Source of the DNA: a virus
Virus record (IMG/VR): IMGVR_UViG_3300023174_000033
Location: 248,001-312,000 of that record
Direction: 5' to 3' (one strand)
Length of the DNA stretch: 64,000 bases
Made by a program: the position numbers and the translations under genes. Shown here piece after piece: positions 21,757-56,936 of this stretch. The notes beneath the pieces are model-generated. The model was not told the DNA's origin. It ran no database searches and worked only from the letters and a program-made list of their open reading frames with translations. Numbering within the stretch: position 1 is the stretch's first letter; every line of letters begins with the position of its first letter.

Positions 21757-21814
21757 ATGAAAAAATTGGTTTTTAGTTTTAATATATAAAATAAACAAAA
21801 AAAAATACATTACT
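21757..21814 (+). repeat. 58-bp promoter/leader repeat, copy 1 (sheath A)
   Basis: The sequence directly upstream of the first sheath gene is repeated almost base for base upstream of the second (26125-26182). It contains TTAATATATAA at 21779-21789 as a probable late promoter and an A-rich stretch before the ATG that probably serves as the ribosome-binding region, since no Shine-Dalgarno sequence is present. Confidence 0.85.
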
Positions 21815-40100: not shown

Positions 40101-40401
40101 GTTCTTTGATAAAACTGCTAAACAATCTTTAAAAGAGGCTCCTGGTTATCCAACCGCTGAAGTTGAGGAAGGTGCTAAAAAATTAGGCCCACAATCAACT
40201 GCAGTCAAACCTACTGCTGTTAAAAAAGAAAAGAAACCAGAAGATTTGATGAGCGAAATGAGTGGATATTTGAAACTTATGGCGACTTCTTTAGCATCTA
40301 TTCAAGGTGTTATTGGAGAGTCGCAGAAGGACATTACTTTATCTGGATATTTATCTTATAAGCAAAGTCAGGGACAAGTATTCAAATTAGGGGGTAATTA
40401 A
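31150..40401 (+). CDS. Tape measure protein, 3083 aa, three repeat regions
   Basis: This giant protein sits next to the sheath genes and has the make-up of a tail tape measure: a helical N-terminus (1-100), a long repeat section, a hydrophobic middle and helical repeats to the C-terminus. Residues about 110-797 are 33 copies of a 21-residue unit close to IIPLKYGEVPTLPEMAKIE. Residues about 825-1500 hold many membrane-like segments in repeating blocks of about 75 residues (LLSSFILSAVAPVGG and relatives). Residues about 1500-2360 are around 12 clear copies of a 72-residue block with KFTGGPTKEW and MFGGGGIGPKDF, then degenerate ones. Tape measures set tail length and are ejected, often inserting in the inner membrane. 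No peptidase or lysozyme domain was seen. If only length mattered, about 1.5 angstrom per residue would predict a tail over 400 nm, but the Pro-rich repeats may not be extended helix. Confidence 0.85.
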   Translation: MDKKLLDALNNLSIGLEILSQALEDNGKEMKSAVSQALKSIDLDKKFKTLSKGIESLADVSKKITDGQNTTLKILEEQSKKIAGLSKSTTGAKAKITKVNQGPELAPLPEQEIPLKYGEVPTLPELGKIEEQIIPIKYGELPTLPELGKIKEQIIPLKYGKAPIFVNLSKIKETLIPLKYGKVPIFINLEKIKEAIIPLKYGSVPTLPKMAKIEEQIIPLKYGDIPTLPEMAKVEEQIIPLVYGELPTLPSIAEQVIQLKYGELPSLPSIGEQIIPLKYGEVPTLPKMGEIEEQIIPLKYGEVPTLRDLAKVEDQIIPLKYGEVPTLPEMAKIIEQIIPLKYGEVPTLPEMAKISEQIIPLKYGEVPTLPEMAKVEEQIIPLKYGEVPTLPEMAKIGDQIIPLKYGDVPTLPKMGEIEEQIIPLKYGEVPTLPKMGEIEEQIIPLKYGEVPTLPEMAKIGDQIIPLKYGDVPTLPEMAKIGEQVIPLKYGEAPTLPEMAKISEQIIPLKYGDVPTLPEMAKIGDQIIPLKYGDVPTLPEMAKISEQIIPLKYGELPTLPEMAKVEEQIIPLKCGEAPTLPEMAKIGEQVIPLKYGEAPTLPEMAKVEEQIIPLKYGDVPTLPEMVKISQQIIPLKYGELPTLPEMAKISEQIIPLKYGEVPTLPEMAKVEEQIIPLKYGELPTLPEMAKIGDQIIPLKYGDVPTLPELGKIDSQEIPLSYGKLPELPKVGKVDSIELPVKYGKMPDLPKMAKMKPIELPVKWGKIPKLPQLPKISAQEIALKYEKVKPFTPPTPKKVIIPTEYEQPKNKVTAPPKQTVKGQAESPMDPKKNKGIKEGIGLILLMAVAIVALGLAFKVIGGVNIGTVLALSVAIPILALAFAKVSEYKSLTLKRALELTGVMVAIATAVLLSSFILSAVAPVGGAQILTTLSIALMFTVIGFGLQQLINSVQGLGPKAMRNVFLLPIIMPALSLAILLSSFILSMVQPVGMVQLFSAIAIAGVFYVLSLGIEKLVEGVSKIGAGSLVALAIMPLVLAALSFSIMLSSYFLSAVAPVGIVQLFTAIGIAAVFTVLSYGLKNLMEGISSVGIKSLLFLPFLPLIMVTLSLAIAMSSYVLGAVKPVGILQLFTAILIAGVFSVLAYGLNKMISALKGVNPATAAVIAVALPILLVAISFAIMASSYAFAAIKPIGLTQFLTALAISIIFIPISFALPYISKAIQNISIGRIVLLPVIMVAMAVAIWLSSEIFAKVTPIPLATLFNVVMIAITMALVTLILGFTAKLINSISIKTFLKGALAMVIIATTIMTTSLILAKGEYTKYPSIGWLIGSLLGVAGFGIVMFLLDKVGLNPAKVITGAIAIVAIAGAIYVSSLILSKGNYTKYPTIDWAIGVAASMIPFGIASVILGAIATSGVGALAIAAGLVAIIAIAGTIIAVDKILSIGSYGKYPTLPWVKGVGASLLAFGVATVGLGTFIVGTIGIGALALAAGKDAVLGIAQNIVDAAEILSKGNFTGGPKKEWAEGVAIALGAFSPIYSMLAKGGIMKLFTGGPSPQEFGQAIVAICDSINIAAERLSKGKFIGGPTKAWSEGVGLGIGAFASVYKMLLANSIMKMFGGGGIGPKDFASAIQAISAGLLVAGESLSKGTFTGGPTKEWSEGVAAGIGGFSQVYNMLMANAIMKMFGGGGIGPKDFGKAIQAISQGLLISSEILAKGTFTGGPTKKWSEGVAAGIGGFSQVYSMLMSNAIMKMFGGGGIGPKDFSKAVEAISKGLMVASLNLAKGNFTGGPSKNWAEGVSASIGAFSKVYNMLISSSIMKMFGGGGISPQDFGKAIESISKGLTKAGDILSKGKFTGGPSVSWALGVREGIGAFSSVYAMLISSGIPKMFGGGFGPKDFATAIETMSEALKKSGNILSKGKFSGGPTLAWAMGVSQAIGGFSKVYDMMVMNKVASMFGGGGLGPIEFAKAVESVSKSLNLAGELLSGGKFTGGPTEAWAKGVSLGIGGFGKVYGMLLANQIAKMFGGGGIGPEQFAEAVKSVSIALTIAGSILSTAKFTGGPTEEWSKGVAAGIGGFSTVYKMLLLNRIAEMFGGGGIGPDQFSEAVKTVSTALAVAGIILGPAKFTGGPTEEWSKGVAAGIGGFSTVYKMLLLNRIAEMFGGGGIGPTDFSKAVESVSMALMVAGRALENGKFTGGPTVAWSEGVGKALGAFSAVYRMMAVNGLAKMFGGGGLGPNEFASAIEVVSGGLVKAGEALAGGKFIGGPTLAWSEGVSKALGAFSPIYTMLAKNKEWISAGPSIEEYKTAIRTVALGMVEAAKILASPEAQVAYKNGPSKQWAEGVSIALQGFTGIFSSLNKDSSWFSGGQDYEFYGKAIESVGRGLVAAARAIGAEGVTYDLNKVPKPEWGKNVGEAFKAFIPALKLVQSAGSSLPWGQTGAEVVLEAMTAIGDSLVNVSLTISKGNFKTIIPLPWVTGLKDSFGMMVDILKRVNGEKFTEADSWGPLGNIASAVKIVSQLLVKGIYPENLIPDEWTSSVTSTFNQFISIMKDLGKMTDFTGIRNITNNVVWVSKILSRGKYDYQVNEDWLDSTKTTFDNFIEILKSVRDLIPMDYVKFRAVGSNLVWISNLLPKGKYDFIVPEIWTDSTVSTMQTFAELFSSMGRVEPAAYQGIRNMVNNIVWTSLILPRGKYDYSIPKTFSMNLESIFNDFIKLSSISEKLQPKSVASVRIMSRLVTDTSLNLKRGFFNTMIPKGWAQSIQETFKQFALGISFLKKEDVLKSLDKTMSKQLMELSQCIIDVANFFNKTKTNFDPRRMPSLAWSQGFSQIISAIIPGLQFMEENDSIFGLGDSGADKLKKGVQALANAVVDASNILSKGKFTVRIPTDYFTNLSASIQSYIEITKNLNGSGSTSSELLRYVDGMTKLAEAYDKLSRALNKLNSEVNKIDKEKMDTLKNMAGSVVLLSLMDSSQFDKMMMSLESKAKMFVEFFDKTAKQSLKEAPGYPTAEVEEGAKKLGPQSTAVKPTAVKKEKKPEDLMSEMSGYLKLMATSLASIQGVIGESQKDITLSGYLSYKQSQGQVFKLGGN
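31477..33540 (+). repeat. 33 tandem 63-bp coding repeats in the tape measure gene
   Basis: Units encode 21 residues with invariant LKYG and P-x-L-P; two units are 18 residues (near 31870-31980). Many neighbouring units are nearly identical in DNA, for example those between 32390 and 32520, which shows recent amplification or homogenisation. The first and last few units have drifted most. Confidence 0.96.
33840..34990 (+). repeat. Diverged hydrophobic repeats of about 75 residues in the tape measure gene
   Basis: Blocks recur with the order LSSFILSAVAPVG, then LFTAIxIAGVF, then a Gly-Leu helix and a short basic linker; about six blocks can be aligned by eye. Each holds two or three membrane-length hydrophobic stretches. 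Protein-level similarity is clear, while the DNA has diverged. Confidence 0.75.
35650..38240 (+). repeat. About 12 repeats of roughly 72 residues in the tape measure gene
   Basis: Each block carries (K/S)FTGGPTxxW, GVxxGIGGFSxVYxML and MFGGGGIGPxxF. Some adjacent pairs are nearly identical over 20 or more residues (the two copies around 37310 and 37510). The Gly-rich loops alternate with helices. Confidence 0.9.
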
Positions 40402-41980: not shown

Positions 41981-42008
41981 AAAACCCCTCTTTTGAGGGG
42001 TTTTTTTT
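41981..42008. terminator. Bidirectional terminator between convergent genes
   Basis: The stem AAAACCCCTC/GAGGGGTTTT has a TTTT loop and a run of eight T. It starts four bases after the plus-strand stop, and its far end touches the stop (42007-42009) of the 1999-residue minus-strand gene. Confidence 0.92.
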
Positions 42009-45000
42009 ATTCAATCTTTCTTGTTAATTGTATAATTGGTGAGAAAGGCAATAGTGGTTCTGGATATCTTAACGGATCAGCTAAATCCTTTGTACTTCTG
42101 ATTTCATAATTTTTCTTTACTGTGAATGTCTGACCATATCCATTATCACTTGTCAATTCAATTACTACGAATGGATCAATATTTGTATCAATTGTAAAAT
42201 TGTAAGGATTTGATATAAATTGTGGTTTTGGCTTTTCGTCATAAAGAAGTACAGGCAGATCTTCTACTAAACTGTAACTTGATACGATTCTAAACTCACT
42301 CAATGTCTGAACCGGCATCATATCTACAAGTTTCCACTCTGTCATATAAAGCCAACTAGCTGTTGCTGGTTGTCTATTTATATCTAAAAATGGATTCACA
42401 TTTGATTGAGAACCAAAAGTTATATAAGAATTTGTTGCGTTGATATATTGATAAATTTCTCTATCATAATTTATGAATTGGCCGAGTGTGAAATTAATTG
42501 ATGCCGTCCAAGTTGTTAGATTTTCATATTTTCTTGGATTTTTTAATTTGTTATTAGTTATTACAGAAGTATAAAATTTACCATAATAAGAAACTATATC
42601 ACTTAAAGTATATGTTGTGAAAGGATTCCATTCTTTATAAGTCTTATAAGTTTTTATTTTAATTTTAAAATAATCTGGCATAACTGAGTGTGTTGGCACC
42701 GCACCAACATAGAAGTCAATTCTGCAAGTGTAAACAGTTGATCCACTATTCACTGGTGCTAAATAAGCTTCACTGAGCGTGAAATCAACTGGAGTAAAAT
42801 CTTGTTTTATATTCAGTATTTTAGCATCATAATTTTTGTGTTGTATTGTAGTCACCCCAACAAAATCAGCCCTACCTGTAATATCAAGTATTCTATGAGT
42901 TATTGGTATAATTTTATTTTCTAACCATAATTTCAATCCCTGTAATTTCATCAAAACCTCACTCAAAGAATACAAAAGTACATTAGTTCCTTCCTTATCA
43001 GTTATTTTGAATGTTAAATTGAATAAGTTAGTTTCTTCGTATCTAGGATTTGGTAGAGTATATTTCAGAAAATCTTTATCACTCCAACCTTTAATTGTGT
43101 TATCAAAAATATCCGGTATTTCTACTTTGAATAAAGATTCAAATCTTATATCACTTTTTTCTACATTTCTATAATATTCATAAAGTTCCAAATCGTTGTA
43201 GCCAAAGTGATTTATTGAATTTATAATTGACTTATAAGATCCAATATACGGGAATATTTCATTACGAGTCATTAATAACTCTTTCCTTTTCTTGTTTAAG
43301 TAAGTCCAATCAACACCTTGTTCATTTATATCATATTCTTTATAGATGAATATATCATCTGGATTTACTAATTGACCGTTGTTAGCTAATTCAATTTTAT
43401 AACGTATATCTTCAATTTCAGTTTGGACTTTTACATTTATTTTTGCAATTGGCCTATCAACTACCTGAAATCTTGTCTGTAAATAAGTAGTATCGCCGTC
43501 AAATGGATAATCATCAATTTGAGTAAACTCATCAATAAAAACTCTATCAATAAAATTCACTATCAAATATTTTGAAAATACTTCTTCAATCTCAACAGTT
43601 ATTCCACTATTGTATGATATGTACTTATTTTTCTGATTTGTAGCATCTGTTATTGTCAATTTCAAGAATTGTCCTTGTTTCAATCCCCTTGTGATACCCT
43701 TTGAATCTTGTCTAAAATTATGAAATGATATACTATTTAGTAATATGTATCCTTTTGAATTACCAAGTCTATCGGTTTGAACTGTAAATTGAATTACACT
43801 TGAATTTTGAGATGCTGAAACTATCGTAAAATCAATTGGCTCTCTTTTATTAATGTAAAGAGTGGATGCCATAACACCCTCATTTTTTGAATTACACCCA
43901 ATGTATACTTGTAAAGGTGTTGGTTTGTTAGCTATGTTGGTTTCTGAATCAACATGATCAAGTGTAAATCTTAATGATTCAAAAACAGTTTGTTGATATT
44001 CCGATAGACCAGCTCTATCTGGTTTTGTATTTGGTGTTGTATTTAGAGAAACAATTGGAAACGGTTTTGGTCCAGTATATGGTACGGATGCTGTCGGACT
44101 CAATTGATCACCACTATAGTCATATAAAAATATATCCTTTACATCATCGTTTTCCCACTGAAATATAAAGTCCACTAATGGTTCATCATTGAAGTTTTCT
44201 CTTGGTTTTCTAACATATTCTCTAGCTTTTAACCATAAATTTTTTGGCAGCGAATAATTTGGATCAAGATTTCCATATAAGTTATCCGCGGTAGTTTCTG
44301 AAATACTTGTGCCATCTATAGCGATACTGGTTGATACTGAAACATCCATTTCAAATAATAAAGATACCTTATCAGCAGTTAGTTGACTTGGTGAATAAAC
44401 GATACCATAAATACTTTTTCTATCTGGATTATAAATGATTTTTGAAGCGGTTCCATCAATACTTTGTTGGGACTTTATGGATCTACTGAATTTATCCATA
44501 ACAGATATGGTTCTCTGCGAAGCATTCGCGATATAAGTATCTCCATCAAACAGGTTATGTACGATTGGCCCCCATGCTACCGGAGTTATTATGTTGGAAA
44601 CTGGGTTACCATCAAGGTCAAATACATCAAACTGACCAGTGGAAGAAACTTGAATTTGTTGTTGGGCAATGTCATAAGCGATGTATCTATTTGCTCCGGT
44701 AAAAATTGGTGTCAACGGACTAGAATAGGTCGCAAAATTTATCAAGGCGTCACCATTTACACTTAACATACCTGCAAATGAATTTGGTGAGGTTCTTTGT
44801 CCAAAAGCATATATTGAGCTATTCCAAGGGCCATAATACAATTCTTCTTTAAGAGAGGCCGGTGAAGTTGTCATTAAGCTATAGCTTGATACAATTAATC
44901 TTGTGTCACCATCATATCGGAGTATCCAAGGTCTATTCGATGGTACAGTCTGTGTGTCAATCGCTCTGATATACATATCCTTCTCAACAGGATTAAAAAC

Positions 45001-48000
45001 CATGTTATACCAATTTAGACTTGGAACACTTGATTCAAAAGTCGGAACGCTTGTAAAATTACTTTTTGACCAAACACTAAATTTTCTATTAGTGGCTCCC
45101 GCACCATATGTCACATAAAAATCACCGTTATCCGTATTAACTTCGCAAGCATGTGGGGAAGCGGAGAAAGTGAATGTATATTCTAATTTCGGTATGTATG
45201 GGTCAACAACATAAGCTCTGTGTACTGTAGCAGCTGGTAATGCACTTTGGGATGAACTTATACAATAAAGAAAGTTATTTACGGGATTAAATACCATAAA
45301 TTTTGGTTGACCAGAAAATGGTAATATAACTTGATCTATAAAATCATTAGTTCTTGAATCATAAGCGATCAATCTACTATCACTTGGTAAACTTACTGAT
45401 GTTCCTGATAAAACATAAATTCTATTTGCAGAATTTAAATACGTTATATCAACAAAGTGGTCAAAATCATATGACGCGGCACTCGGGTGATTTGGTCTAC
45501 CGACATAACTCATTGTATAACTATTTGAGGCTCCGAATTGTATCCTGAATGAACTAGCAAAAGAAGACTTTGCGAAATCTCCTGGACTTGCGGGTTTTGG
45601 AACACTTGGAGTACAACTCAAAACATTAAAACCAGCACCAAAACCTAATGTTGAAAATGGAGCTACATCACAATATGGAGTAGTTGTTGGCCAAAATGGA
45701 CCTTGATAACTCAAATTCATAGATTGTGAACCCAAAAATTCAATATTATACTCATTATTATTATAAGGTCTAGTTGAATTATTTATAGTCACTAATTGTC
45801 CAGTAGCGAACCCATCAATTTCAAAATTAAATTTATTATTATTTGATAAAACCACAGAGTTTGAAGTTATCAAACATCCTAAATTGCCAGGTATGCATTT
45901 CTTTATTTCAAATGATGGTAGTCCTGGTAGTGAAATTATACCAGTTTTTACCGAAATTTCAAACCTTTGGTCTTGTTCTTTTACACTAAAAATTAACATA
46001 GAAAGATTACTTGTCACGATAATATCATATCCTGCTAATTTTTCCGACCAGTTCCTGACAAAATTTATTAATGTAGTATTAAAATCTACCTTACCCGATT
46101 TATAAGTCACATCTTGTCTATATTCAAAATCATTTAGTAATATAGAAAAACTAGAACTCAAATTATAAAGAAGTACTTTGGTGTGTAAAATTGAAAAATT
46201 AGCAGTTGTGCCAACTCTCACACTAAAAACCAAAGGTACATTTGGATACTCTGTTTTAAAGGATATTGTATTTCTGAAAATTGAATAACCTTTACCCGTG
46301 TATTCAAGTGTTGTTACTATACCTAAATTTGCTATTGGTACATACCATTTTGTTAACCAATTTTCTAGAGTTCTATTTATTGTAGAATCCATGTTAACAT
46401 TTATTCCATCATAAATAAATTCAACATCTTCATAATATATTTGACCATTCAAAGTTATTTCAATTCCAAATTCATCAATATCGGTAAAAACAATATCATA
46501 TCGTTTATTTTCTGAAAAATCTCTATTAAGTTCAGTCGTTAGATTTTCTACAATCTCAATGTTTGATTCACTAATATCAATTATTTCAGCAGATGGGGCT
46601 ATTAGTTGGGTGCTAGTAGTTGGTGTTTCCAAATAATATTCAACTTTAGCATATTCCTCTGGATAAATTAAGTCACAATAAATTTTATTATTATTGTAAT
46701 AATAATTAATATTCAAACTTTTTAGTTCAGGTGCGTATCTATCAATTGAAGAACCGAATGTAAAATCAACACTTTGTGTATAAGGTTGTGGATAAACAAA
46801 ATAATTGTTAATCAGTTGTACTTCACCTGTAAAAAAAGGTTGATCAACAATTGATTCAACAATTGGTAATGTTGTAGATTCTTTCCAAAATCCTGTGTTA
46901 TCTGGAAAAATTGAAGCAGTTGCCGTCCAAGTGTATTGTGTGGTACATTCGTATATAATATTATTATAAATGGTTAAGAAACCCACTGGTATGTCTGTTT
47001 TGGGTTTCACAGGTTGGTTCCAAGTTGAGTAAGTAGATGATACACCTATTGAATTCCAGTTTGGAATATTATCTATTGTTAAAAAATTACTGTTTAAACC
47101 TGGTGACGCATTAACCACACTAAACCTAATACCAGGTTTTAATATCCTTGGAATTCCACCCTGCAACTGAATTGTTTTTGTTGCTTGGAAAAATTGTAAT
47201 CCTCCAGTATATACAGTTGGTAAATCTGTCAATAAAGTTACTCTTAATGTAAAAGTGGTATTTGGAAGAATAGATATAGGGTTCAGTGTATACCTTTTAT
47301 AAACTCTGTCCGGTAGAGAAACAGGATTACCAAAAGTGTCCTTTGGAATATTAACTGATACAATCTTATTATTCTTCTCTGAATTTATTATATTTAATTT
47401 TCTGTCGTTATAATATTTTCTATAAAATTGTGGTTCCGACCAAGAAGAAAGGTTATCTTTACTACCACTTCTGTAATTATAAATGCCGATAGAATTTACA
47501 CCAGATATGAAAAAAGTATTAATAAAAGTTATGTCAAATAATCCCGCTAAATTGTTTTTTGTGTCAGCCAATAACATTATAGCATTCTTTTTTGTTTTAT
47601 GTACATTATAAGTCTTATTAGGTGAGAAATCGGTGAATGCTGTTGAGAATCTAACCTGAGACCCTATTGGAAATATTGTATCAAAATTATCTCCATAAAT
47701 CCACCTTGATGATAATTTTGGATCTGAATTTGGCACCTCATAATTTGTTATAGAAAAAGTAGAGGAAGTAGCTCCATAGAAATTAATCCCAAATTCATTG
47801 AATAATTGAAATTTATCCAATGATAGTGTAACACCAGGTGCATAAGCAAAACCTGGTATTTTCTCTAAAACATAAAGTCCTATTGTTTTGTGAGTATCAT
47901 CACTATTTTCGTGGAAGATTAAATCACCTTCCCAAATTTTATCAGTTTCGCTCCATCTAAAATTTAAACTATCCCCCTCTTTATTAAAGAAAATTAATGA

Positions 48001-48006
48001 TTGCAT
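42007..48006 (-). CDS. Giant baseplate/tail structural protein with beta-propeller-like section, 1999 aa
   Basis: The N-terminus MQSLIFFNKEGDSLNFRW with EGDLIFHENSDDTHKTIG looks like a conserved virion-attachment domain. Beta-rich sequence follows, including a short carbohydrate-binding-like unit (YECTTQYTWTATAS, FWKESTTLP) near residue 360. Residues about 840-1210 form five to six repeating blades (GQPKFMVFNPVNNFLYCIS, EVNTDNGDFYVTYG, NMVFNPVEKDMYIRAID and IIYNPDRKSIYGIVYSP), typical of a YVTN/NHL-type propeller. Residues about 1560-1640 (KKRKELLMTRNEIFPYIG, NSINHFGYNDLELYEYYRN) resemble the gpI-like baseplate proteins of contractile tails. Near the end two more Trp/Tyr-rich small modules recur (WNPFTTYTLSDIVSYYGKFY). 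It is probably a baseplate component that also carries receptor- or sugar-binding domains. The T4 counterpart is unclear. Confidence 0.7.
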   Translation of the reverse strand: MQSLIFFNKEGDSLNFRWSETDKIWEGDLIFHENSDDTHKTIGLYVLEKIPGFAYAPGVTLSLDKFQLFNEFGINFYGATSSTFSITNYEVPNSDPKLSSRWIYGDNFDTIFPIGSQVRFSTAFTDFSPNKTYNVHKTKKNAIMLLADTKNNLAGLFDITFINTFFISGVNSIGIYNYRSGSKDNLSSWSEPQFYRKYYNDRKLNIINSEKNNKIVSVNIPKDTFGNPVSLPDRVYKRYTLNPISILPNTTFTLRVTLLTDLPTVYTGGLQFFQATKTIQLQGGIPRILKPGIRFSVVNASPGLNSNFLTIDNIPNWNSIGVSSTYSTWNQPVKPKTDIPVGFLTIYNNIIYECTTQYTWTATASIFPDNTGFWKESTTLPIVESIVDQPFFTGEVQLINNYFVYPQPYTQSVDFTFGSSIDRYAPELKSLNINYYYNNNKIYCDLIYPEEYAKVEYYLETPTTSTQLIAPSAEIIDISESNIEIVENLTTELNRDFSENKRYDIVFTDIDEFGIEITLNGQIYYEDVEFIYDGINVNMDSTINRTLENWLTKWYVPIANLGIVTTLEYTGKGYSIFRNTISFKTEYPNVPLVFSVRVGTTANFSILHTKVLLYNLSSSFSILLNDFEYRQDVTYKSGKVDFNTTLINFVRNWSEKLAGYDIIVTSNLSMLIFSVKEQDQRFEISVKTGIISLPGLPSFEIKKCIPGNLGCLITSNSVVLSNNNKFNFEIDGFATGQLVTINNSTRPYNNNEYNIEFLGSQSMNLSYQGPFWPTTTPYCDVAPFSTLGFGAGFNVLSCTPSVPKPASPGDFAKSSFASSFRIQFGASNSYTMSYVGRPNHPSAASYDFDHFVDITYLNSANRIYVLSGTSVSLPSDSRLIAYDSRTNDFIDQVILPFSGQPKFMVFNPVNNFLYCISSSQSALPAATVHRAYVVDPYIPKLEYTFTFSASPHACEVNTDNGDFYVTYGAGATNRKFSVWSKSNFTSVPTFESSVPSLNWYNMVFNPVEKDMYIRAIDTQTVPSNRPWILRYDGDTRLIVSSYSLMTTSPASLKEELYYGPWNSSIYAFGQRTSPNSFAGMLSVNGDALINFATYSSPLTPIFTGANRYIAYDIAQQQIQVSSTGQFDVFDLDGNPVSNIITPVAWGPIVHNLFDGDTYIANASQRTISVMDKFSRSIKSQQSIDGTASKIIYNPDRKSIYGIVYSPSQLTADKVSLLFEMDVSVSTSIAIDGTSISETTADNLYGNLDPNYSLPKNLWLKAREYVRKPRENFNDEPLVDFIFQWENDDVKDIFLYDYSGDQLSPTASVPYTGPKPFPIVSLNTTPNTKPDRAGLSEYQQTVFESLRFTLDHVDSETNIANKPTPLQVYIGCNSKNEGVMASTLYINKREPIDFTIVSASQNSSVIQFTVQTDRLGNSKGYILLNSISFHNFRQDSKGITRGLKQGQFLKLTITDATNQKNKYISYNSGITVEIEEVFSKYLIVNFIDRVFIDEFTQIDDYPFDGDTTYLQTRFQVVDRPIAKINVKVQTEIEDIRYKIELANNGQLVNPDDIFIYKEYDINEQGVDWTYLNKKRKELLMTRNEIFPYIGSYKSIINSINHFGYNDLELYEYYRNVEKSDIRFESLFKVEIPDIFDNTIKGWSDKDFLKYTLPNPRYEETNLFNLTFKITDKEGTNVLLYSLSEVLMKLQGLKLWLENKIIPITHRILDITGRADFVGVTTIQHKNYDAKILNIKQDFTPVDFTLSEAYLAPVNSGSTVYTCRIDFYVGAVPTHSVMPDYFKIKIKTYKTYKEWNPFTTYTLSDIVSYYGKFYTSVITNNKLKNPRKYENLTTWTASINFTLGQFINYDREIYQYINATNSYITFGSQSNVNPFLDINRQPATASWLYMTEWKLVDMMPVQTLSEFRIVSSYSLVEDLPVLLYDEKPKPQFISNPYNFTIDTNIDPFVVIELTSDNGYGQTFTVKKNYEIRSTKDLADPLRYPEPLLPFSPIIQLTRKIE

Positions 48007-48102: not shown

Positions 48103-48681
48103 ATGAGGTACATAAATTTGTTTAATAAATTCCAACCAATTAGTGAAAATCTTAAATATCATGTAGATAATAATCTACCAGTATTAGAAAATGTTTTTAG
48201 ACCTGGTTCAAATTCTTTCTTTGAATTAATTAAGGAAGCTAGAAATCTTTTTGACTCAAAAGAGATTGAATTAGTTGGAATTGACAAAATACTTTTTGAA
48301 ACTACGGATTTAGGCAAATTTGCAGAGTTTGAAGGTGAAATTGTACCACTTGACCTACCGATTGAAGAAACCGAAGAATTATACGAGGCTGAATATCATG
48401 GTAAAAAAGTTCCTATCGGCAAACCTATGAGAAGTTCTGGTCCGAAGAAATATAAAGTTTATGTGAAAAATCCTAAAACTGGAAATGTAAAAGTGGTAAA
48501 TTTTGGTGATGCTAAAGGTGGATTGAGTGCTAAAGTATCTGATCCAAAAGCTAGAAAATCTTTTGCAGCCAGACATCAGTGCCATTTGAAAAAAGATAAG
48601 ACCAAACCAGGTTACTGGGCTTGTAGGGCTAACAGATATGCTAATCTTTGGGGTGGCAAAACTTATCCTGGATATTGGTAA
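48103..48681 (+). CDS. Internal-protein candidate with conserved basic C-terminal domain, 192 aa
   Basis: The start is set at ATG 48103 because MRYINLFNKF matches the targeting-like signature; an in-frame ATG at 48001 would extend into the divergent promoter zone. A possible protease site ISE lies at residues 12-14. The middle is acidic (LPIEETEELYEAEYHG). The C-terminal 80 residues form a domain common in T4-like phages: KKYKVYVKNPKTGNVKVVNFGD, DPKARKSFAARHQC (Cys), then KPGYWACRANRYANLWGG. In relatives it occurs in small virion or head-packaged proteins of unknown role. Basic residues plus two Cys suggest a nucleic-acid contact. The gene stands alone, upstream of the giant fibre. Confidence 0.7.
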   Translation: MRYINLFNKFQPISENLKYHVDNNLPVLENVFRPGSNSFFELIKEARNLFDSKEIELVGIDKILFETTDLGKFAEFEGEIVPLDLPIEETEELYEAEYHGKKVPIGKPMRSSGPKKYKVYVKNPKTGNVKVVNFGDAKGGLSAKVSDPKARKSFAARHQCHLKKDKTKPGYWACRANRYANLWGGKTYPGYW

Positions 48682-48750: not shown

Positions 48751-51700
48751 ATGAAAATAGATAAACCCTCCATTAATAGAATTACAGACTTACGTAGTAT
48801 CAACGACGTAAATATTACAATTGGTAATACAAGCTCACTCTCATTTCCAACATCAGAAGCAAATCACATCATAATTGGCGCATCGGCTGGTCAAGAAAAC
48901 TACGGTATAAATGTAGTTGGCTTGGGATTGGAAAGTGTGAAAAATAATGATGGTTCCTCGGTATATGCAATTGGTCGCAAATCTGCTTTTGGTAACTCAC
49001 AAGACCACGTAGTAGCTATCGGTGACCTCACTGCGAATGAAAATCTTGGAATAAATGTAAATGCTATTGGTGAGTGGGCAGGAGCTTCAAATTCAGGTGA
49101 TAATGTAAACGCTTTTGGAAAAAGGGCTGCTTATGGTAATACTGGTTCAAATGTAAATGCTTTTGGTGAATTGGCGGCACAGGGTAACGATGGTAATGAT
49201 TTGAATGCAATTGGTTACTATGCTGGCAATCAGAACACAGGCGATTATGTAAATGCGGTAGGTTGGATTGCTGGTAGGAAAAACACAGGTGATAATGTAG
49301 ATGCTTTTGGTAATTACGCAGCAGAGAGTAATAAAGGAAGTCGAGTAGTGGGGATTGGTAATGCGGCAGCATACCAAAATACTGGTTCTACTATTGTTGC
49401 AGTTGGTTACTTATCGGCATTTGGAAATACTGGATCAGACGGTGTTTATATTGGTAACAATGCTGGTTCGAAGAATATAGGTGACGGGGTAAATGCTATA
49501 GGTAATAGCTCGGGACTAGCAAATAGTGGAAATCAATTAAATTCAATTGGAAATGATTCAGCAAGAAATAACACCGGAAATAATGTTGTTGCCATTGGGG
49601 ACAGAGCTGCTTATCAAAACGAGGGTTCGGAAACATATGTTTTTGGTTTAGATGCTGGTAGAGAAAATAAAGGAAATTATGTTGCATCTATTGGAACGGA
49701 AGCTGCTAGAGAAAACACTGGATCCAATGTACAAGCTTTCGGAAGACTCGCTGCAAAAGGAAATACTGGTTCTGATGTGGTATCAATCGGTTATGCTGCT
49801 GGAATTAGGAATGTAGGGGATGTTATTAATGCAATCGGTCTTGAATCAGCTTTAGACAATAGTGGAAATTATGTAAACTCAATCGGTCAAAGAGCTGGGG
49901 ATACCAATACTGGTGATTTTGTAAACCAATTCGGAAGATATGCTGGTCAGAATAATAAAGGTTCCTATGCGAATCAAATAGGAGATTCAGCTGGTAAGTA
50001 TAATACAGGCATGAGTGTGAATCAAATCGGTCTAAATGCCGGTCTTGGTAACACTGGTTCATATGTGGTGCAGATTGGTGAAGGCGCTGGTTCAGGAAAT
50101 ACCACTAACCTTATGGTACAAATTGGTTTAGAAGTTGGTACAAATAATACTGGTGAGAGATCAAACCAAATTGGTGCTTTTGCTGGTGGAAATAATAGTG
50201 GATCATTTGCAAATCAAATTGGATTTGGATCGGGCGCAAATAACACAGGAGAACAAGCCACACAAATTGGAAATGCTGCAGGTTCGGGAAATTCCGGTCT
50301 TGCAGTTAATCAGATAGGCTCAAATGCGGGCCAATCAAACGAAGGTGATTATGTGAATCAAATAGGCGTTGGAACTGGTCAATCAAACAAAGGTAATAAT
50401 GCAAATCAGATTGGTAGTGGGGCTGGAAGTGGTAATGAGGGAAATGATGTGAATCAAATTGGAACAAATGCTGGTGGGAATAATACCGGAGATTCCGTTA
50501 ATTTTATAGGAAAAAATAGTGGTGCTAGTAATACTGGAACTTATGTAGAAGCGATTGGTGAAAACTCAGCTTTTTCAAACACTGGTGTCCATGTGATTGC
50601 TTTGGGATATGACGCAGCAAATGATAATTCGGGAAATAATGTCATAGCAATCGGAGGGACAGCGGCAAGAGAAAATACCGGTTCCGATGTAATTGGCATT
50701 GGTGAAAATGCTGCGTATTTAAATAGTGGTGCTTCAGATGTAATTGCAATCGGTCGTGATGCGGCTAAACAAAACACTGGTCAATATGTTTATGCGTTCG
50801 GAACTATTGCTGCTAGAGAAAATACAGGCACAAATGTCGTCGCTATAGGTGGTCCGGTACTCGTAAACAACTCCGGCAATCAAGTAGTTGGATTGGGAAT
50901 AAGTTCACTAGAAGATAATCAAGGCGACTATGTTATAGGCATAGGAGACATTACGGGAAATAGTAATACAGGTGATTATCTTATCGCTATAGGTAGAGAG
51001 GCTGGTACATTAAATACCGGAATTCATCAGAATGCTTTTGGAAATAGGTCACTATATAATGCCACTTCAAATTACTCAAATGCTATTGGGTATCAATCTG
51101 GCGAACAATCCTCTGGTAGTCATAAAAATATGATCGGATATGAAGCAGGATTGGGGTCTGGTGGCGATCGACAAGATGTAATGGGTTACAACGCCTTTTA
51201 TGAAGCAAGTGGTAGTGATATTGTTGCTATTGGAGCTTATGCATTATTCTTGGGCACTGCTAGTCGTTTAGTGGCAATTGGCGCGTCAGCAGGTATGTAT
51301 AATATCGCAAACGATGGTATCTTCATAGGTGGGGAAGCTGGTAGTTTCAACAAGGGAACTGAATCAATCCAAATAGGTAAACTTGCTGGTAGTAGAAATA
51401 CTGGAAGTAATGTAGTGCAAATAGGTATTGAGACAGGAACTGGTAATACTGGTTCTAATAATCTCCAAATAGGTGGATATGCTGGTCAAGAAAATATTTC
51501 AAGTGGATCAATACAAATAGGTTTATTTGCCGGATATCAAAATACTGGAAATCATTCCAATCAACTAGGTTATCAGGCGGGTTATCAAAATATTGGTTCA
51601 AGAGCAATACAATTAGGTTATGCCGCTGCTCAACAAAATAGTGGAGATTACGCTGTTCAAATCGGAGATAATGTTGGTGGCCTAAATACAGGTGATTATG

Positions 51701-54700
51701 TGAATCAATTCGGTGTGTCATCTGGTGCAAACAATCAAGGTAGTTATGTAAATCAGATAGGGTACGCAGTTGGAGATGGTAATAAGTCCTCATTTGTTAA
51801 TTCCATAGGTTATTTAACTGGTCAAGCAAATGGAGGTAGTTTTTCTAATTTTATGGGAGCTTGGGCGGGATGGCAAAATAGTGGGCACTCTGTCAACGCA
51901 ATCGGTAATAGTGCTTCAAAGTCAAACACCGGTGATTATGTAAATGCTATTGGAGATAATGCTGGGTTTTCCAATTTAGGAAACCATGTAAATTCTATGG
52001 GTCGAGATTCAGCGAGGGAAAACAAATCTGATTTTGTTGATGCAATCGGAACAGAGGCAGCAAAATTAAACTCAGGAACTTATGGTATTTTTATCGGATA
52101 TCAATCTGGATTATCAAATAAAGGTTCATATGTTGTGAGTTTAGGATATCAATCAGGTGATAATAATAGTGGTGAAGGTTCGGTAAGTATAGGTCGAAGA
52201 GCTGGTCAAAACTCTTCTGGTGATTATATGAATGCGATTGGATATCTAGCTGGTTTTGGTTCAAGTGGAGTCAGAAATAATTTCATAGGTTACGATACTG
52301 GTGAAAATAACACTGGCACAAGAGTAAATGCCATAGGTGAAAGTGCTGCCCTTTCCAATGATGGTAATTATATAAATGCTATTGGATTTGAAGCTGCTTG
52401 GGATAATGCCAGCGATTATGTAGATGCAATTGGGTATCAGGCGGCTTACCAAAACACAAACGCTTCAAATTATATAGTAGCAATTGGGCGTTCGAGTGGA
52501 TACAGAAATAGTGGATCATACAACAACTTCGTAGGAAATGAAAGTGGATTTGACAATGAGGGAAGTTTCAATATTGGTTTGGGGTTTCGATCTGGCTACT
52601 CTGTAACAGCATCATACGTCGTTTCCTTGGGATTTGAGAGCGGTCAAAATTCAATAGCTGGAGTAAATGTAAATATCGGAAGAGAAGCTGGTAAACAAAG
52701 TCTTGGCGCTGGTAGTAATTTTATCGGTGATATGGCTGGTAAAAATAATAAAAGTCAATACGTTATAGCGATAGGGGAATCAGCAGCAGAAGGAAATTAT
52801 GGAACTTTTGGCATTTTTCTTGGACGTTTCAGTGGTCAAAACAATCAAGGTGCGTCCAACATTGGATTGGGTAATAATACTTTCGTTAATAGTCTCGCCA
52901 CTCGTTCTGTTGGCATTGGTAGTGGTGGAGCTCTTCAGAATTCCTACGGTAGTTTCCTTGTCGCAATTGGAGATAGTAGTGGTGGATTCAATAAATCTGA
53001 TAGAACAATATCTATTGGTTACCTTGCTGGATATTTACAAGCTGGTACACAATCAATTGCTATAGGTAATGAAAGTGGACAAAGCAACATTGGTATTCGG
53101 GTTATATCAATAGGAAGTAGAGCTGCTTATGGAAATACTGGTAGTGAAGTTATATCTATAGGTTCAACTGCGGGTTACTATAATTCTGGTGAGAGAGGTA
53201 TCTATATAGGGATTGAATCCGGTAGAGAACATACTGGAGATAACTCAATCGCGATTGGTGATGGTTCATTGAGTAGAGAGACTATAGCTCCATTTAGAAC
53301 CACATCATCAACATACTCAATTGCCATAGGTTCAGATGCTGGTAAGAGAAGTAGTTTATCAAATAGTGTGGTGGTCGGTAAATCCGCTGGTCTTGGATCC
53401 TCTGGTGTTCAAATTATAGGCATTGGTGATTCAGCTCAATCAGGTTCAAGTGGTGCAAATAGTATAGGTATAGGTCAGTCATCACTTTCATCTAATTCAG
53501 GTACTTGGTCAATTGGATTGGGATATAGGGCAGGACAACTGAATACATCAGAATACTTGATTGCCATGGGATATGATGCTGGTAATCAAAATCAGGGAGA
53601 TAATTCAATTTTGCTTGGATATCAATCAGGTCTAGGTAATAAAAGTGATTCTACGATAAGTTTTGGGTTTCAATCGGGTTATCTAAACGAAGGAACTTAT
53701 TCCGTTATGGTTGGTGAAAGAGCTGGTGCGAATAATCAAGGATTTAGTTTAAACTCTGTTGGATGGTATGCAGGTAATGGTAATGATGGTGATTATGTTG
53801 TTGGTATAGGATATCAATCAGCAAGAGAGAATAAAGGAGATGATTTAGTTTCACTCGGACAAGAGGCAGGTCAGTTCAATAAATCATCAAATGTTGTATC
53901 TATTGGTCAGAGAAGTGGTCGTACAAATACCGGAACTTGGTCTAATTTTATAGGTTTCAAATCTGGAGAATTAAATACCGGAGCTTACACAAACGCATTT
54001 GGTTCTAGTGCTTCTTTCACAAATAAAGGTCAATATGTAAATGCGATTGGTTTTGAAGCTGGTGCATTCAATGAAGGGACATATGGTGATTTCCTCGGAT
54101 ATAGAGCTGGTTATCAAAACTTTGGAGAAAATTATGTTATTGGTATAGGTGTGCAAGCTGCTATGTCAAATTCAGCTTCAAACATAATTGCAATTGGTTT
54201 AAATGCTTTAAGAAGTAATTTAGGTGGAAGTGATGAAACCATCGGTATAGGTAATCAGTCAGGTAATCAAAATAAGGGGGTAAAAAATGTTTTCATAGGT
54301 AGTAACGCCGGACAATTACAAAAGGGTGACCAAAATATTGCAATTGGTGCTAACTCAGGACAACAAAGTTTTGGTACAAATTCAGTTTATATTGGTTTAT
54401 TTGCTGGATACCAACAAACCGGAGAAAGTGCTATTTTGATTGGTGAAAATGCTGGAAATGCTGGTACTGGACATGAAAATATAAGTATTGGTAAAAACGT
54501 TGGTGGAGTTAGAGGCTCAAATAATATTTCAATCGGGGAAGAAGCTGGTTCACAAATTAGAGCGACATTCAGTATACAAATTGGTTATAGAGCTGGAACA
54601 AGAAACTCTGGTTCGGATGTTGTAATTATTGGTAATAATGCAGGTGTAGGCAATACTGGCAGTAGTAATAATATAATAGGAGCGAGTGCAGGTCAAGGGA

Positions 54701-56130
54701 ATTTCGGTTCATTTGCAAATATAATGGGAGTTGATTCAGCTCTGAACTCTTTGAATATAAGTTATGGTAATGCTTTTGGATATGGTGCGGCAAGAAATGC
54801 TATAGGATTTGGTTCCAACTTTATTGGCCAAGAAGCTGGTTCTACTGCTGCTGCGGTTGCTCAATATAGTAATTATATCGGAGCATGGGCAGGTGGATCT
54901 AATGGTGGAGATAGAGTGAACTCGATAGGATTTTTTGCAGGCCATAACACCAAGGGATATTATTCTAATTATATCGGATGGGATGCTGGTAAAGATACAA
55001 ATATGCGTCACTCAAATGCTATAGGTTATAGGGCAGCAAGTGAAGTCGGTAAAAATCAAACCTCGAGCCCTAATCCTTTTAACAGTGCATTGAACCAATT
55101 TATAAATGCAATCGGAGTTGAATCTTTATTTGCAGGAACTGGAAGTCACGTTAACGCAATAGGTACTAGTGCTTCTTTCAGAGGAGCAGGGGAGTTTATC
55201 AATAGTATTGGTTTTGAAGCAGGCGCTATTACTAACGGTTCTTACAGTAACTACATAGGATTTAAAGCTGGATTTCAAAGTACAGGAGACTATAACGACT
55301 TTATTGGATATCAATCTGGATTTAGAAATAAAGGTAACAAAAACCTGGCAATTGGTACCGAGGCCTTATCGTCGTTCAACGGATTGTCGACAATAGGAAT
55401 CGGAGAGTTATCTGGTCAGTATTCCACTGGTAGTTCAAATATATTTATAGGAGGATTTCAGACCGGAAAATATTCGGAAGGAAATAGTAATATTTATATT
55501 GGGGGCAGAACGGGTGAAGATACAAATGGTGACGCAAATGTATCCTTAGGTATAAATAGTCTTCAGGGGGGTACTGCATCAACCACAATTGTGATTGGTG
55601 CTAATAGTGGGGGTAGTATGAGGACTTTGGATGGAATCGCTATAGGTAGTAATGCACTTTCAGGCCATAATGGGAATAATACTATCTCGATAGGTAAAAG
55701 TTCTGGTAATAATTCCTTAGCGAATAACCTGATTATGATTGGGGAGAACGCTGGTGAGCGTAGTAGAGGAACTCATAGTATACACATTGGTCAGAATTCT
55801 GGAGGTAAAAGTGGTGGGTTTCAGATTGGTCAGTACAATGTTGGTATAGGTAGGGAAAGTCTTTATGGACTCACCGGATCTTACTTAGTTGCTATTGGTG
55901 ATCAAGCTGGATACGAAAATTCCGCAGATCACGTTATTGCTTTGGGAGCAACTGCTGGATATAGAAACACAAAGAGTAACCAATTCATAATTAGTAATAG
56001 TAATATGCCAGTATACACCGATAAAGCTACAGCTGATGCCGCTATAACAGTAGCGAACGGATTCAACAGTGGTAATACTTACTTATATTGGAACACCGCA
56101 ACTGCTGATATAGGAGCTAAAAGATTGTAA
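48751..56130 (+). CDS. Giant repetitive tail fibre, YadA-head-like 16-residue repeats, 2459 aa
   Basis: After an N-terminal segment of about 35 residues (MKIDKPSINRITDLRSIND) nearly the whole protein is made of 16-residue units of the type V(N/V)xIGxxAGxxNTGxY. The I-G and A-(G/A) positions match the head repeats of trimeric autotransporters such as YadA (about 14 residues, left-handed beta-roll), so a long trimeric beta-roll fibre is the natural inference. The C-terminus changes to QFIISNSNMPVYTDKATAD, then YLYWNTATADIGAKRL, a short end domain of the kind found in Bacteroidota phage fibres. Fibres recognise the host surface. At 48 bases per unit the gene is one long imperfect DNA repeat and would be prone to length change. 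A small cupin-like gene follows after eight bases. Confidence 0.82.
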   Translation: MKIDKPSINRITDLRSINDVNITIGNTSSLSFPTSEANHIIIGASAGQENYGINVVGLGLESVKNNDGSSVYAIGRKSAFGNSQDHVVAIGDLTANENLGINVNAIGEWAGASNSGDNVNAFGKRAAYGNTGSNVNAFGELAAQGNDGNDLNAIGYYAGNQNTGDYVNAVGWIAGRKNTGDNVDAFGNYAAESNKGSRVVGIGNAAAYQNTGSTIVAVGYLSAFGNTGSDGVYIGNNAGSKNIGDGVNAIGNSSGLANSGNQLNSIGNDSARNNTGNNVVAIGDRAAYQNEGSETYVFGLDAGRENKGNYVASIGTEAARENTGSNVQAFGRLAAKGNTGSDVVSIGYAAGIRNVGDVINAIGLESALDNSGNYVNSIGQRAGDTNTGDFVNQFGRYAGQNNKGSYANQIGDSAGKYNTGMSVNQIGLNAGLGNTGSYVVQIGEGAGSGNTTNLMVQIGLEVGTNNTGERSNQIGAFAGGNNSGSFANQIGFGSGANNTGEQATQIGNAAGSGNSGLAVNQIGSNAGQSNEGDYVNQIGVGTGQSNKGNNANQIGSGAGSGNEGNDVNQIGTNAGGNNTGDSVNFIGKNSGASNTGTYVEAIGENSAFSNTGVHVIALGYDAANDNSGNNVIAIGGTAARENTGSDVIGIGENAAYLNSGASDVIAIGRDAAKQNTGQYVYAFGTIAARENTGTNVVAIGGPVLVNNSGNQVVGLGISSLEDNQGDYVIGIGDITGNSNTGDYLIAIGREAGTLNTGIHQNAFGNRSLYNATSNYSNAIGYQSGEQSSGSHKNMIGYEAGLGSGGDRQDVMGYNAFYEASGSDIVAIGAYALFLGTASRLVAIGASAGMYNIANDGIFIGGEAGSFNKGTESIQIGKLAGSRNTGSNVVQIGIETGTGNTGSNNLQIGGYAGQENISSGSIQIGLFAGYQNTGNHSNQLGYQAGYQNIGSRAIQLGYAAAQQNSGDYAVQIGDNVGGLNTGDYVNQFGVSSGANNQGSYVNQIGYAVGDGNKSSFVNSIGYLTGQANGGSFSNFMGAWAGWQNSGHSVNAIGNSASKSNTGDYVNAIGDNAGFSNLGNHVNSMGRDSARENKSDFVDAIGTEAAKLNSGTYGIFIGYQSGLSNKGSYVVSLGYQSGDNNSGEGSVSIGRRAGQNSSGDYMNAIGYLAGFGSSGVRNNFIGYDTGENNTGTRVNAIGESAALSNDGNYINAIGFEAAWDNASDYVDAIGYQAAYQNTNASNYIVAIGRSSGYRNSGSYNNFVGNESGFDNEGSFNIGLGFRSGYSVTASYVVSLGFESGQNSIAGVNVNIGREAGKQSLGAGSNFIGDMAGKNNKSQYVIAIGESAAEGNYGTFGIFLGRFSGQNNQGASNIGLGNNTFVNSLATRSVGIGSGGALQNSYGSFLVAIGDSSGGFNKSDRTISIGYLAGYLQAGTQSIAIGNESGQSNIGIRVISIGSRAAYGNTGSEVISIGSTAGYYNSGERGIYIGIESGREHTGDNSIAIGDGSLSRETIAPFRTTSSTYSIAIGSDAGKRSSLSNSVVVGKSAGLGSSGVQIIGIGDSAQSGSSGANSIGIGQSSLSSNSGTWSIGLGYRAGQLNTSEYLIAMGYDAGNQNQGDNSILLGYQSGLGNKSDSTISFGFQSGYLNEGTYSVMVGERAGANNQGFSLNSVGWYAGNGNDGDYVVGIGYQSARENKGDDLVSLGQEAGQFNKSSNVVSIGQRSGRTNTGTWSNFIGFKSGELNTGAYTNAFGSSASFTNKGQYVNAIGFEAGAFNEGTYGDFLGYRAGYQNFGENYVIGIGVQAAMSNSASNIIAIGLNALRSNLGGSDETIGIGNQSGNQNKGVKNVFIGSNAGQLQKGDQNIAIGANSGQQSFGTNSVYIGLFAGYQQTGESAILIGENAGNAGTGHENISIGKNVGGVRGSNNISIGEEAGSQIRATFSIQIGYRAGTRNSGSDVVIIGNNAGVGNTGSSNNIIGASAGQGNFGSFANIMGVDSALNSLNISYGNAFGYGAARNAIGFGSNFIGQEAGSTAAAVAQYSNYIGAWAGGSNGGDRVNSIGFFAGHNTKGYYSNYIGWDAGKDTNMRHSNAIGYRAASEVGKNQTSSPNPFNSALNQFINAIGVESLFAGTGSHVNAIGTSASFRGAGEFINSIGFEAGAITNGSYSNYIGFKAGFQSTGDYNDFIGYQSGFRNKGNKNLAIGTEALSSFNGLSTIGIGELSGQYSTGSSNIFIGGFQTGKYSEGNSNIYIGGRTGEDTNGDANVSLGINSLQGGTASTTIVIGANSGGSMRTLDGIAIGSNALSGHNGNNTISIGKSSGNNSLANNLIMIGENAGERSRGTHSIHIGQNSGGKSGGFQIGQYNVGIGRESLYGLTGSYLVAIGDQAGYENSADHVIALGATAGYRNTKSNQFIISNSNMPVYTDKATADAAITVANGFNSGNTYLYWNTATADIGAKRL
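48850..55970 (+). repeat. About 148 imperfect 48-bp coding repeats in the fibre gene
   Basis: The 16-residue period holds almost without interruption for 7 kb, with occasional 15-, 17- or 18-residue units. Codon use varies between units, so most are not recent copies, but short stretches such as the GNTGS(N/D)V type recur at DNA level. Confidence 0.93.
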
Positions 56131-56138
56131 TTTTGACT

Positions 56139-56405
56139 ATGGAATTACCTTTCAACGAAGAAGAAATTTCAAAGGCTGTCTATTTAAGGACATTTTATGA
56201 AAATGTTGAGTCAGGTGATTTGACTTGGCACAGAGATAGAGAAGACAGATATATTGAGCCAACCCATGAGACAAATTGGGCATTCCAAATAGATAACGAA
56301 TTGCCACAAAATATAGATAAAAAAATATTTATACCTAAAGGTGTTTATCACAGACTTATAAAAGGTAAAGGAGATTTGATATTAAAAATTGAAAAATTAA
56401 ATTAA
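56139..56405 (+). CDS. Small cupin-like phage protein, 88 aa
   Basis: The start is taken at ATG 56139; a TTG two codons upstream is possible. The pattern LTWHRDREDRYIEP, then WAFQIDNELPQNI and KIFIPKGVYHRLIKGKGDL is that of a small phage family that looks like a minimal cupin (His-x-Arg at the start, IPK-x-x-x-HR near the end). Metal or sugar binding is conceivable but unproven. It is only eight bases downstream of the fibre gene, so it is co-expressed and may help fibre folding or decorate the fibre; this is inferred. Its last codons overlap the promoter element of the next gene. Confidence 0.65.
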   Translation: MELPFNEEEISKAVYLRTFYENVESGDLTWHRDREDRYIEPTHETNWAFQIDNELPQNIDKKIFIPKGVYHRLIKGKGDLILKIEKLN

Positions 56406-56412
56406 TATATAA
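56402..56412 (+). promoter_or_regulatory. Candidate late promoter TTAATATATAA
   Basis: It overlaps the stop codon of the cupin-like gene and ends three bases before the ATG at 56416, the same tight spacing as at gp25. A nearly leaderless mRNA would result if it is used. Confidence 0.42.
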
Positions 56413-56415: not shown

Positions 56416-56634
56416 ATGAATCACTTATTATTATTTGAAGACTTTCAAGAATATCTAATTGTTGAAAAAAATGTACCTAACAATCCATCTTTATGGGCAT
56501 CTTGCAAAGCTTGGGCAAAAAATACTTATGATGTTTATCCATCCGCTTATGCTAATGGAGCAGCTGCAAAAAGGTACAAATCCAAAGGTGGAACTTGGAG
56601 AAAATCAAAAATTAGAAAAAAGAAAAAGAAATAA
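56416..56634 (+). CDS. Small basic internal-protein candidate, 72 aa
   Basis: The start MNHLLLFEDFQEYLIVEKN is a strong match to the targeting-like signature, and IVE at residues 15-17 is a plausible gp21-type cut site. The mature part (NPSLWASCKAWAKNTYDVYP, then SAYANGAAAKRYKSKGGTWR) is a well-conserved small domain seen in many phages and large DNA viruses, and it ends in a Lys/Arg-rich tail (RKSKIRKKKKK). After cleavage it would be a very basic peptide of about 55 residues able to bind packaged DNA. The stop and next start overlap (TAATG), so it is translationally coupled to a second protein of the same design. Confidence 0.72.
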   Translation: MNHLLLFEDFQEYLIVEKNVPNNPSLWASCKAWAKNTYDVYPSAYANGAAAKRYKSKGGTWRKSKIRKKKKK

Positions 56635-56936
56635 TGGAACATTTACTCCCATTTGAAGACTTCATCAATGAAGAAAAATCATATAAGGGTTCTCATGGTG
56701 GACTGGATAAATGGTTCAAAGAGAAGTGGGTAGATATTTCGAAAACTAATAAAGATGGATCACACCCGCCTTGTGGCAGGTCAGATACAAGTAAAGGTGG
56801 GTATCCTAAATGTAGAAAAGTAAGAGTAGCCGCTAAAATGTCTAAAAAACAAAAAAAGGCATCAGTTTCTAGAAAAAGAAGAGCGGAAAAAGAGGGTTCA
56901 AAGGGAAGTGGTAGGAAACCAAACTACGCGAATTAA
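56634..56936 (+). CDS. Small basic internal-protein candidate (DUF5872-like), 100 aa
   Basis: MEHLLPFEDFINEEKS repeats the targeting-like start, with INE at residues 11-13 as a likely cleavage site. The rest matches a conserved small domain: GGLDKWFKEKWVDISK, then HPPCGRSDTSKGGYPKCRK and SKKQKKASVSRKRRAEKEG, rich in Lys and Arg and with two Cys. It resembles DUF5872-type proteins found in phages and algal viruses; the function is unknown. It overlaps the upstream basic protein by one base. Two coupled genes with the same leader and different basic domains look like a head-packaged set. Its stop abuts that of gp47 on the other strand. Confidence 0.72.
   Translation: MEHLLPFEDFINEEKSYKGSHGGLDKWFKEKWVDISKTNKDGSHPPCGRSDTSKGGYPKCRKVRVAAKMSKKQKKASVSRKRRAEKEGSKGSGRKPNYAN

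Follow-up and report, generated by a model that had tools for sequence, protein, structure and literature searches.

The stretch of DNA analysed here (the window, 64,000 bp) corresponds to C1:248001-312000 of a 464,605-bp virus record; window coordinates count from its first base, and coordinates with the prefix C1 refer to the record (G000). The record carries a gp23-family capsid gene at C1:246021-246785, adjoined by a gene in which a head-maturation protease is fused to a scaffold. By capsid protein, the closest named relative is LR745206 (634,780 bp; 68% identity), with further relatives among huge-phage assemblies of 642,428 bp, 636,363 bp (LR756504) and 735,411 bp (LR756501) and, beyond those, Prevotella Lak phages and Tenacibaculum phages. 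LR745206, LR756504 and the other huge-phage relatives by capsid are unannotated assemblies. Huge-phage genomes above 634 kb have been assigned to a clade named Mahaphage, with Bacteroidetes as predicted hosts (PMC7162821).

A first-pass annotation had noticed that nine proteins of the window begin alike and had read their common start as a targeting peptide of the T4 type. All nine N-termini are present where it had placed them, those at 21136 and 48103 starting with an ATG within slightly longer frames opened by TTG. The features discussed below are as follows, a slash within a sequence marking a candidate cleavage position.

1-1937 (-): gene of the fused head-maturation protease-scaffold, first 645 of its 690 codons; whole gene C1:247865-249937
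663-1040 (-): tandem 14-residue scaffold repeats, for example YSEYIAENLDKNIA, of the form aromatic-x-x-aromatic-[IL]-x-E
4708-4715 (-): AATATATA preceding the portal gene, taken as a late-gene reference
6427-7716 (-): doubtful member, 429 aa, MKNLKLELFNF, poor tag fit, AATATATA upstream
11215-11826 (-): tagged protein, 203 aa, MKYLKIYENF, alpha/beta body from residue 14
11831-11838 (-): AATATATA before tagged gene 11215, late-promoter-like
11898-12452 (-): tagged protein, 184 aa, MNHLRKFESF...IIME/A, Gln/Glu-rich C-terminus
12483-12490 (-): AATATATA before tagged gene 11898, late-promoter-like
18396-21134 (+): doubtful member, 912 aa, MKYLQRRDDF, poor tag fit, AATATATA upstream
21136-21693 (+): probable tagged protein, 185 aa, MLLKYSEFLRE/N, with the T4-like grammar [FY]xx[FY][ILV]xE and not the strict tag
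21781-21788 (+): AATATATA preceding a tail sheath gene, taken as a late-gene reference
48103-48681 (+): tagged protein, 192 aa, MRYINLFNKFQPISE/N
56404-56411 (+): AATATATA before tagged gene 56416, late-promoter-like
56416-56634 (+): basic tagged protein of 72 aa; MNHLLLFEDFQEYLIVE/K is followed by a body resembling the N-terminal part of DUF5872
56634-56936 (+): basic tagged protein of 100 aa; MEHLLPFEDFINE/E is followed by a body resembling the C-terminal part of DUF5872

The strict tag was defined as M-x-[HYN]-[LI]-x-x-[FY]-[ENSDKQ]. Five of the nine listed proteins carry it (56634, 56416, 11898, 11215 and 48103) and the others are weaker or dropped; the protein at 30377 (MKLKSFKES), previously counted as a member, is dropped because it has neither an [ILVF]xE-type site nor AATATATA upstream. 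The protein at 56416 matches the first part of DUF5872 (profile 1-50) and that at 56634 the last (42-114), both below the Pfam cut-off; the two are therefore not fully independent. Their overlapping genes look as though DUF5872 had been split, with a separate tag for each part. The protein at 11898 has a homologue in LR745206 that reads MKHIRTYENY...IIKE/S. We also noticed three very long genes with little or no family match near the tail genes (31150-40401, 42007-48006 and 48751-56130, coding for 3083, 1999 and 2459 aa, respectively).

Genes were called crudely, as longest non-overlapping frames, in 190 kb of stretches picked partly around matches to the tag pattern (248 genes), and all stretches together make up about half of the record. 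Within this 190-kb sample, the strict tag stands at 42 of 248 gene starts and at none of 1,065 internal methionines, the expectation being 0.3 with the first 30 residues shuffled and 5.5 (maximum 12) with columns permuted across genes. Across the whole record, a nucleotide pattern encoding M-x-x-L-x-x-[FY]-x-x-[FY] matched 44 times and its reversed form 13 times. The loose tag is found in 6 of 43 genes of the window, 4 of 27 in C1:222-248 kb and 23 of 100 in C1:1-60 kb, all blocks taken whole; in C1:90-110 kb and C1:160-180 kb, picked for having zero pattern matches, it is found in 1 of 21 and 1 of 25 genes, and these low counts indicate that tag density is uneven along the genome. The earlier estimate of "at least six" tagged proteins was right about the existence of a set and too low in number: there are about 50, a few of which are probably chance matches, such as the lipoprotein-like start at C1:454469.

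Phenylalanine or tyrosine occupies position 7 in 46 and position 10 in 39 of 50 tagged proteins, and past residue 10 the information content drops to a low plateau. An aromatic-xx-aromatic pair is present within residues 3-14 in 29% of all genes, against 10% elsewhere (p = 1.5e-16). All six codons are used for Leu4 and both codons each for His3 and Tyr3, with some codon bias, so that the signal is one at the protein level. The bodies behind the tag fall into 38 families for 50 proteins by blastp, which agrees with the earlier description of them as unrelated for the most part, with exceptions such as 11 paralogues in one family and the shared DUF5872 of 56416 and 56634. The members of the 11-protein family, mostly of about 125-150 aa and lying in tight gene clusters (C1:39797-43600, 410192-413931 and 434672-435486), are perhaps a diversifying family of effectors. 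No homologues of a 476-aa tagged protein at C1:33458 were found in viral contigs, and a PADLOC scan of ten tagged proteins gave nothing convincing.

Several bodies are also found without the tag. In the tagged NUDIX protein at C1:7782-8279, similarity to phage NUDIX proteins begins at residues 18-34, and the GAP32 NUDIX protein starts where this similarity begins. A podovirus DUF5872 homologue of 56634 starts just at the tag end, and in viral contigs the DUF5872 body is either tagged (MDHLLLFEDFINE/EKSYKG) or bare (MAKPKGGLTKWF, MSLDKWF). An untagged homologue of 11215 (in L083) starts at the first strand of the latter, whose AlphaFold model (pLDDT 80.5) has residues 1-13 without regular structure. 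As far as sequence comparison can tell, the tag is a removable, modular element in the NUDIX, DUF5872, 48103, 11215 and ART-like families.

Two identities considered for the bodies were rejected. The protein at 11215 has an LLIIDVQKSF motif that suggested an isochorismatase-like identity, and Foldseek returned no PDB match at E<=0.001. The protein at C1:30741-31310 scores 19.6 bits against the ART domain PF18760 (curated cut-off 31.2), which is matched in 2 of 12 homologues, and a PDB profile search of the family gave no ART among the matches; ADP-ribosyltransferase identity is not adopted, and the family is called ART-like only. The ART-like body of contigs L267-L270 starts differently, with MNLQEQTYKMKKLMGLKELTLE/N, possibly a further tag that closes with L-x-E. 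A further protein, L066:9804-10736 (LR756501, 735 kb), has the likely start MKTFNQFINE/G, nearly the T4 targeting sequence MKTYQEFIAE.

A candidate processing site, [ILVF]xE within residues 5-22, is present in 38 of 51 tagged (75%) and 57 of 197 untagged proteins (29%), and shuffling residues 5-22 of the tagged proteins gives a mean of 24 and a maximum of 32. The same test in LR745206 gives 36 of 48 tagged and 65 of 203 untagged proteins. The earlier remark that (I/L)-x-E follows soon after the common start applies in this wider form to most tagged proteins; the position of the site varies, and about a quarter of them have none in residues 5-22. The residue following the E is S in 14 cases (2.8 expected), and the residue preceding it is F in 20 (1.7 expected) and N in 8 (2.2 expected); the serine is the cleaner evidence, since F-E is partly built into the tag. 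In the capsid proteins, INE/N (own and LR745206), MNE/N, IHE/N and LYE/N occur where gp23 maturation cleavage is expected, a position that suggests gp23-like maturation sites. Within the ART-like family, homologues read MKHLKPYKLFE/SISEKLYHG and MKYLKEYKIFE/SIEEKLYHG and the own protein MKYLKLFE/SFGKKLYHG: [LI]FE/S keeps a constant distance from the body, and the number of residues preceding it varies. In the 48103 family, [ILVMF]-x-E adjoins the start of the body in 36 of 69 homologues, and the variable stretch that precedes it ranges from a few residues to about 40.

The 690-aa fused protein matches phrog_207 (head maturation protease) with E = 1.1e-29 over residues 4-340. A search of the own genome with Peptidase_S77 (PF03420, the T4 gp21 family) gave no match, and a direct scan of the fused protein gave a weak one (E = 0.001, below the cut-off); relatives pass this cut-off. 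The profile match and the position beside the capsid gene support the prediction that its protease part belongs to the Peptidase S77/gp21 family. Among nine records chosen for tagged or tag-like homologues, seven have a phrog_207 match; none was found in two podoviruses and four contigs with untagged DUF5872, which is weak evidence, as most of these records may be fragments.

The 14-residue repeats occupy the middle of the fused protein. The motif [FY]xx[FY][ILV]xE is found at 6 N-termini of the own genome (0.45 expected, 248 proteins), and 10 of its 17 internal matches (53,925 residues) lie inside this one scaffold protein. The corresponding figures are 5 N-termini (1.1 expected) and 11 of 25 internal matches in the scaffold for LR745206, 7 (0.9 expected) and 11 of 22 for LR756504, and 12 (0.4 expected) and 14 of 21 for LR756501; in a small sample of the more distant LR756500, the motif was seen at no N-terminus and none was counted in the scaffold. 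T4 gp22 has no aromatic-x-x-aromatic-[IL]-x-E repeat, only many L/I-x-E sites, and any imitation of the scaffold by the tag would thus be specific to this clade.

Tagged genes also share an upstream motif, AATATATA, counted when it lies no more than 50 bases upstream of a gene; the counts cover genes preceded by 25 or more intergenic bases. It precedes 19 of 28 tagged and 27 of 131 other genes of the own genome (p = 2.5e-6), or 13 of 19 and 20 of 96 when only whole blocks are considered (p = 9e-5), while eight other A+T-only 8-mers used as control words gave no p below 0.018. As the motif was discovered in the same regions of the own genome in which it was counted, the relatives provide the independent test: 13 of 15 tagged and 18 of 119 other genes in LR745206 (p = 4e-8) and 5 of 8 and 12 of 93 in LR756504 (p = 0.003), LR756501 having too few genes for the comparison. 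The motif precedes five of the eight listed virion genes (capsid, portal, both sheath and baseplate-wedge genes) and none of nine enzyme genes, and genes with the MKYLKLFE form of the tag carry it as well. We infer from this distribution that AATATATA is a late promoter. The two neighbouring tail sheath genes (21815-26029 and 26183-30325, both +; 1404 and 1380 aa) begin with the same residues, hardly differ in their upstream regions, AATATATA included, and are apparently a tandem duplication.

Tags on clearly cytoplasmic enzymes, which the first-pass annotation had regarded as evidence against its reading, were not seen among 20 housekeeping-type proteins, 19 identified by Pfam (ribonucleotide reductase, DnaB-type helicase, ResIII-type helicase, DNA polymerase B exonuclease, amidohydrolase, histidine-kinase-type ATPase, N6/N4 methylase, OMP decarboxylase, clamp loader, two metallophosphoesterases, SmpB, two tRNA synthetases, poly(A) polymerase head, thymidine kinase, thioredoxin, D12 methylase and an Fe-S protein) plus ribosomal protein bS21; the tagged NUDIX hydrolase is the only doubtful case. 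At a tag base rate near 20%, 0 of 20 would arise by chance alone about once per hundred. The bS21 gene (C1:133276-133413) is preceded by AATATATA and its product is untagged, which is what one would expect if the protein is made late and acts in the producing cell. Phage bS21 with N-terminal extensions has been published (PMC7162821); the idea that these extensions are tags was discarded, bS21 being untagged in the own genome and in the huge-phage relatives.

The sequence tests available came out as the T4-type reading predicts, and we consider it likely that some 50 proteins, most of them unrelated, carry a T4-type capsid-targeting sequence and are packaged, cleaved and ejected. The tag obeys the same rules as the T4 signal and thus probably identifies a large group of proteins that travel with the virion into the next host cell. 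The tag, its modularity, the protease gene, the common site grammar and the common promoter-like motif can be read off the genomes themselves; that the proteins are packaged, docked, cut and ejected, and what their bodies do, is inferred from these features. Late in infection, the tagged proteins would be synthesised, and their aromatic pair would dock them on the scaffold core while the head is forming; in doing so the pair may imitate the aromatic-x-x-aromatic repeat in the scaffold part of the fused protein. The fused protease, whose other expected substrates are the capsid protein and the scaffold, would cut after [ILVF]-x-E within or just behind the tag, in MKYLKLFE-type tags after LFE or further on; owing to this cut, the body would be retained in the head with the DNA and then be ejected into the next host. 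It is possible, if a little short of probable, that the tag imitates one scaffold repeat, so that the cargo joins the core as an extra unit and is freed by the same cut. If so, core assembly, cargo loading and release would run under one code, and an extension of about ten residues could be enough for these phages to turn a gene product into new cargo. Three observations count against capsid targeting: a NUDIX enzyme, cytoplasmic elsewhere, is tagged; phage immuto has a phrog_207-type protease and an untagged homologue of 48103; and the site is lacking in about a quarter of tagged proteins.

The missing sites would also suit a tag that directs proteins to another place (membrane, cell pole or replication compartment) and whose E-containing sites are incidental, an amphipathic-looking N-terminal peptide on unrelated proteins being typical of such signals too. 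We regard this as quite improbable, as it leaves unexplained the S or N behind [ILVF]xE, the fixed distance of [LI]FE/S from the ART-like body, and the match to the T4 grammar together with its recurrence in the scaffold. Less probable still, and by our estimate hardly credible, is a tag that acts as an early-translated feature aiding the expression of some late mRNAs, for instance with the phage bS21. The genome does encode bS21, and the upstream motif is common to tagged and late genes; yet the capsid, portal and sheath genes have AATATATA and no tag, the signal lies in the amino acids rather than in the codons of residues 3 and 4, and homologues keep the tag even as they diverge.

Of the readings that compete with capsid targeting, the one we find least improbable, while still unlikely, is that two signals have been lumped together, a T4-like tag near the structural genes (FEDFINE, YEDFITE, YSEFLRE) and MKYLKLFESF with another function on accessory proteins. 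The full T4-like grammar stands at the N-terminus of only 6 of 248 own proteins, and many MKYLKLFESF proteins are encoded at 8-51 kb, at a distance from the structural genes. Both forms nevertheless share the core M-x-H/Y-L-x-x-F-x-x-F, intermediates such as MEHLKLFEDFVEELNEK are found among homologues of one protein, and the MKYLKLFE form has the promoter-like motif and [LI]FE/S as well.

Taken as a capsid-targeting sequence, the tag allows candidate head-packaged or ejected proteins of very large, mostly uncultured phages to be listed from sequence alone, about 50 in this genome and comparable sets in the 634-735 kb relatives. If the reading is true, the largest phages carry dozens of delivered proteins with candidate functions in host takeover and counter-defence. 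The tag also suggests how the T4 signal itself may work, namely by resemblance to the scaffold.

Packaged and processed head proteins are known from several phages. In phiKZ-like phages, ejected head proteins are cut at S/A-x-E (PMC9026906); the likeness is a giant phage head filled with processed proteins, here predicted from genes, and the differences are the lineage, the cleavage motif and the gp23-type capsid of the present phage. Polyvalent proteins of phages and mobile elements are predicted head-packaged, host-directed effectors that include ART domains (PMC5512222), but they are large and multidomain, whereas the proteins described here are mostly small and have a common N-terminal tag. 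T4 Alt is an ADP-ribosyltransferase that is packaged in the head, injected and cut by gp21 (PMC9026906). One tagged family resembles the ART domain PF18760, with a match below the curated cut-off, and the tag differs.

The closest counterpart is the targeting sequence of T4 IPII and IPIII, which both start with MKTYQEFIAE, that is, aromatic-x-x-aromatic-I-x-E. Amber-suppressor genetics of IPIII mapped targeting to residues 4 and 7, and residues 8 and 10 were found to govern processing; ten residues are sufficient in IPIII, targeting is possible in T4 without processing, and T4-like phages were suggested to load various proteins by this signal (PMC9026906). Both systems have about ten N-terminal residues with an aromatic-x-x-aromatic pair, unrelated bodies behind them and a gp21-type protease, and the L/I-x-E processing motif of T4 has its counterpart here in a candidate site of variable position; residues 4 and 7 of T4 correspond to the aromatic pair 7 and 10 of the tag, and residues 8 and 10 to [IL]xE. 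In contrast to the few tagged proteins of T4, about 50 are found here, the aromatic pair is shifted to positions 7 and 10 behind an M-K-H/Y-L-K lead, the candidate processing site is often displaced, and the scaffold is fused to the protease and contains the motif as repeats that gp22 lacks. Our searches of open-licence papers turned up none that describes the tag in these phages. Read in this way, the tag is a large-scale variant of a known T4 signal, and its principle is already known from T4; what is new is the scale (about 50 genes, 38 body families), the spread in the largest phages and the likeness to the repeat of the fused scaffold.
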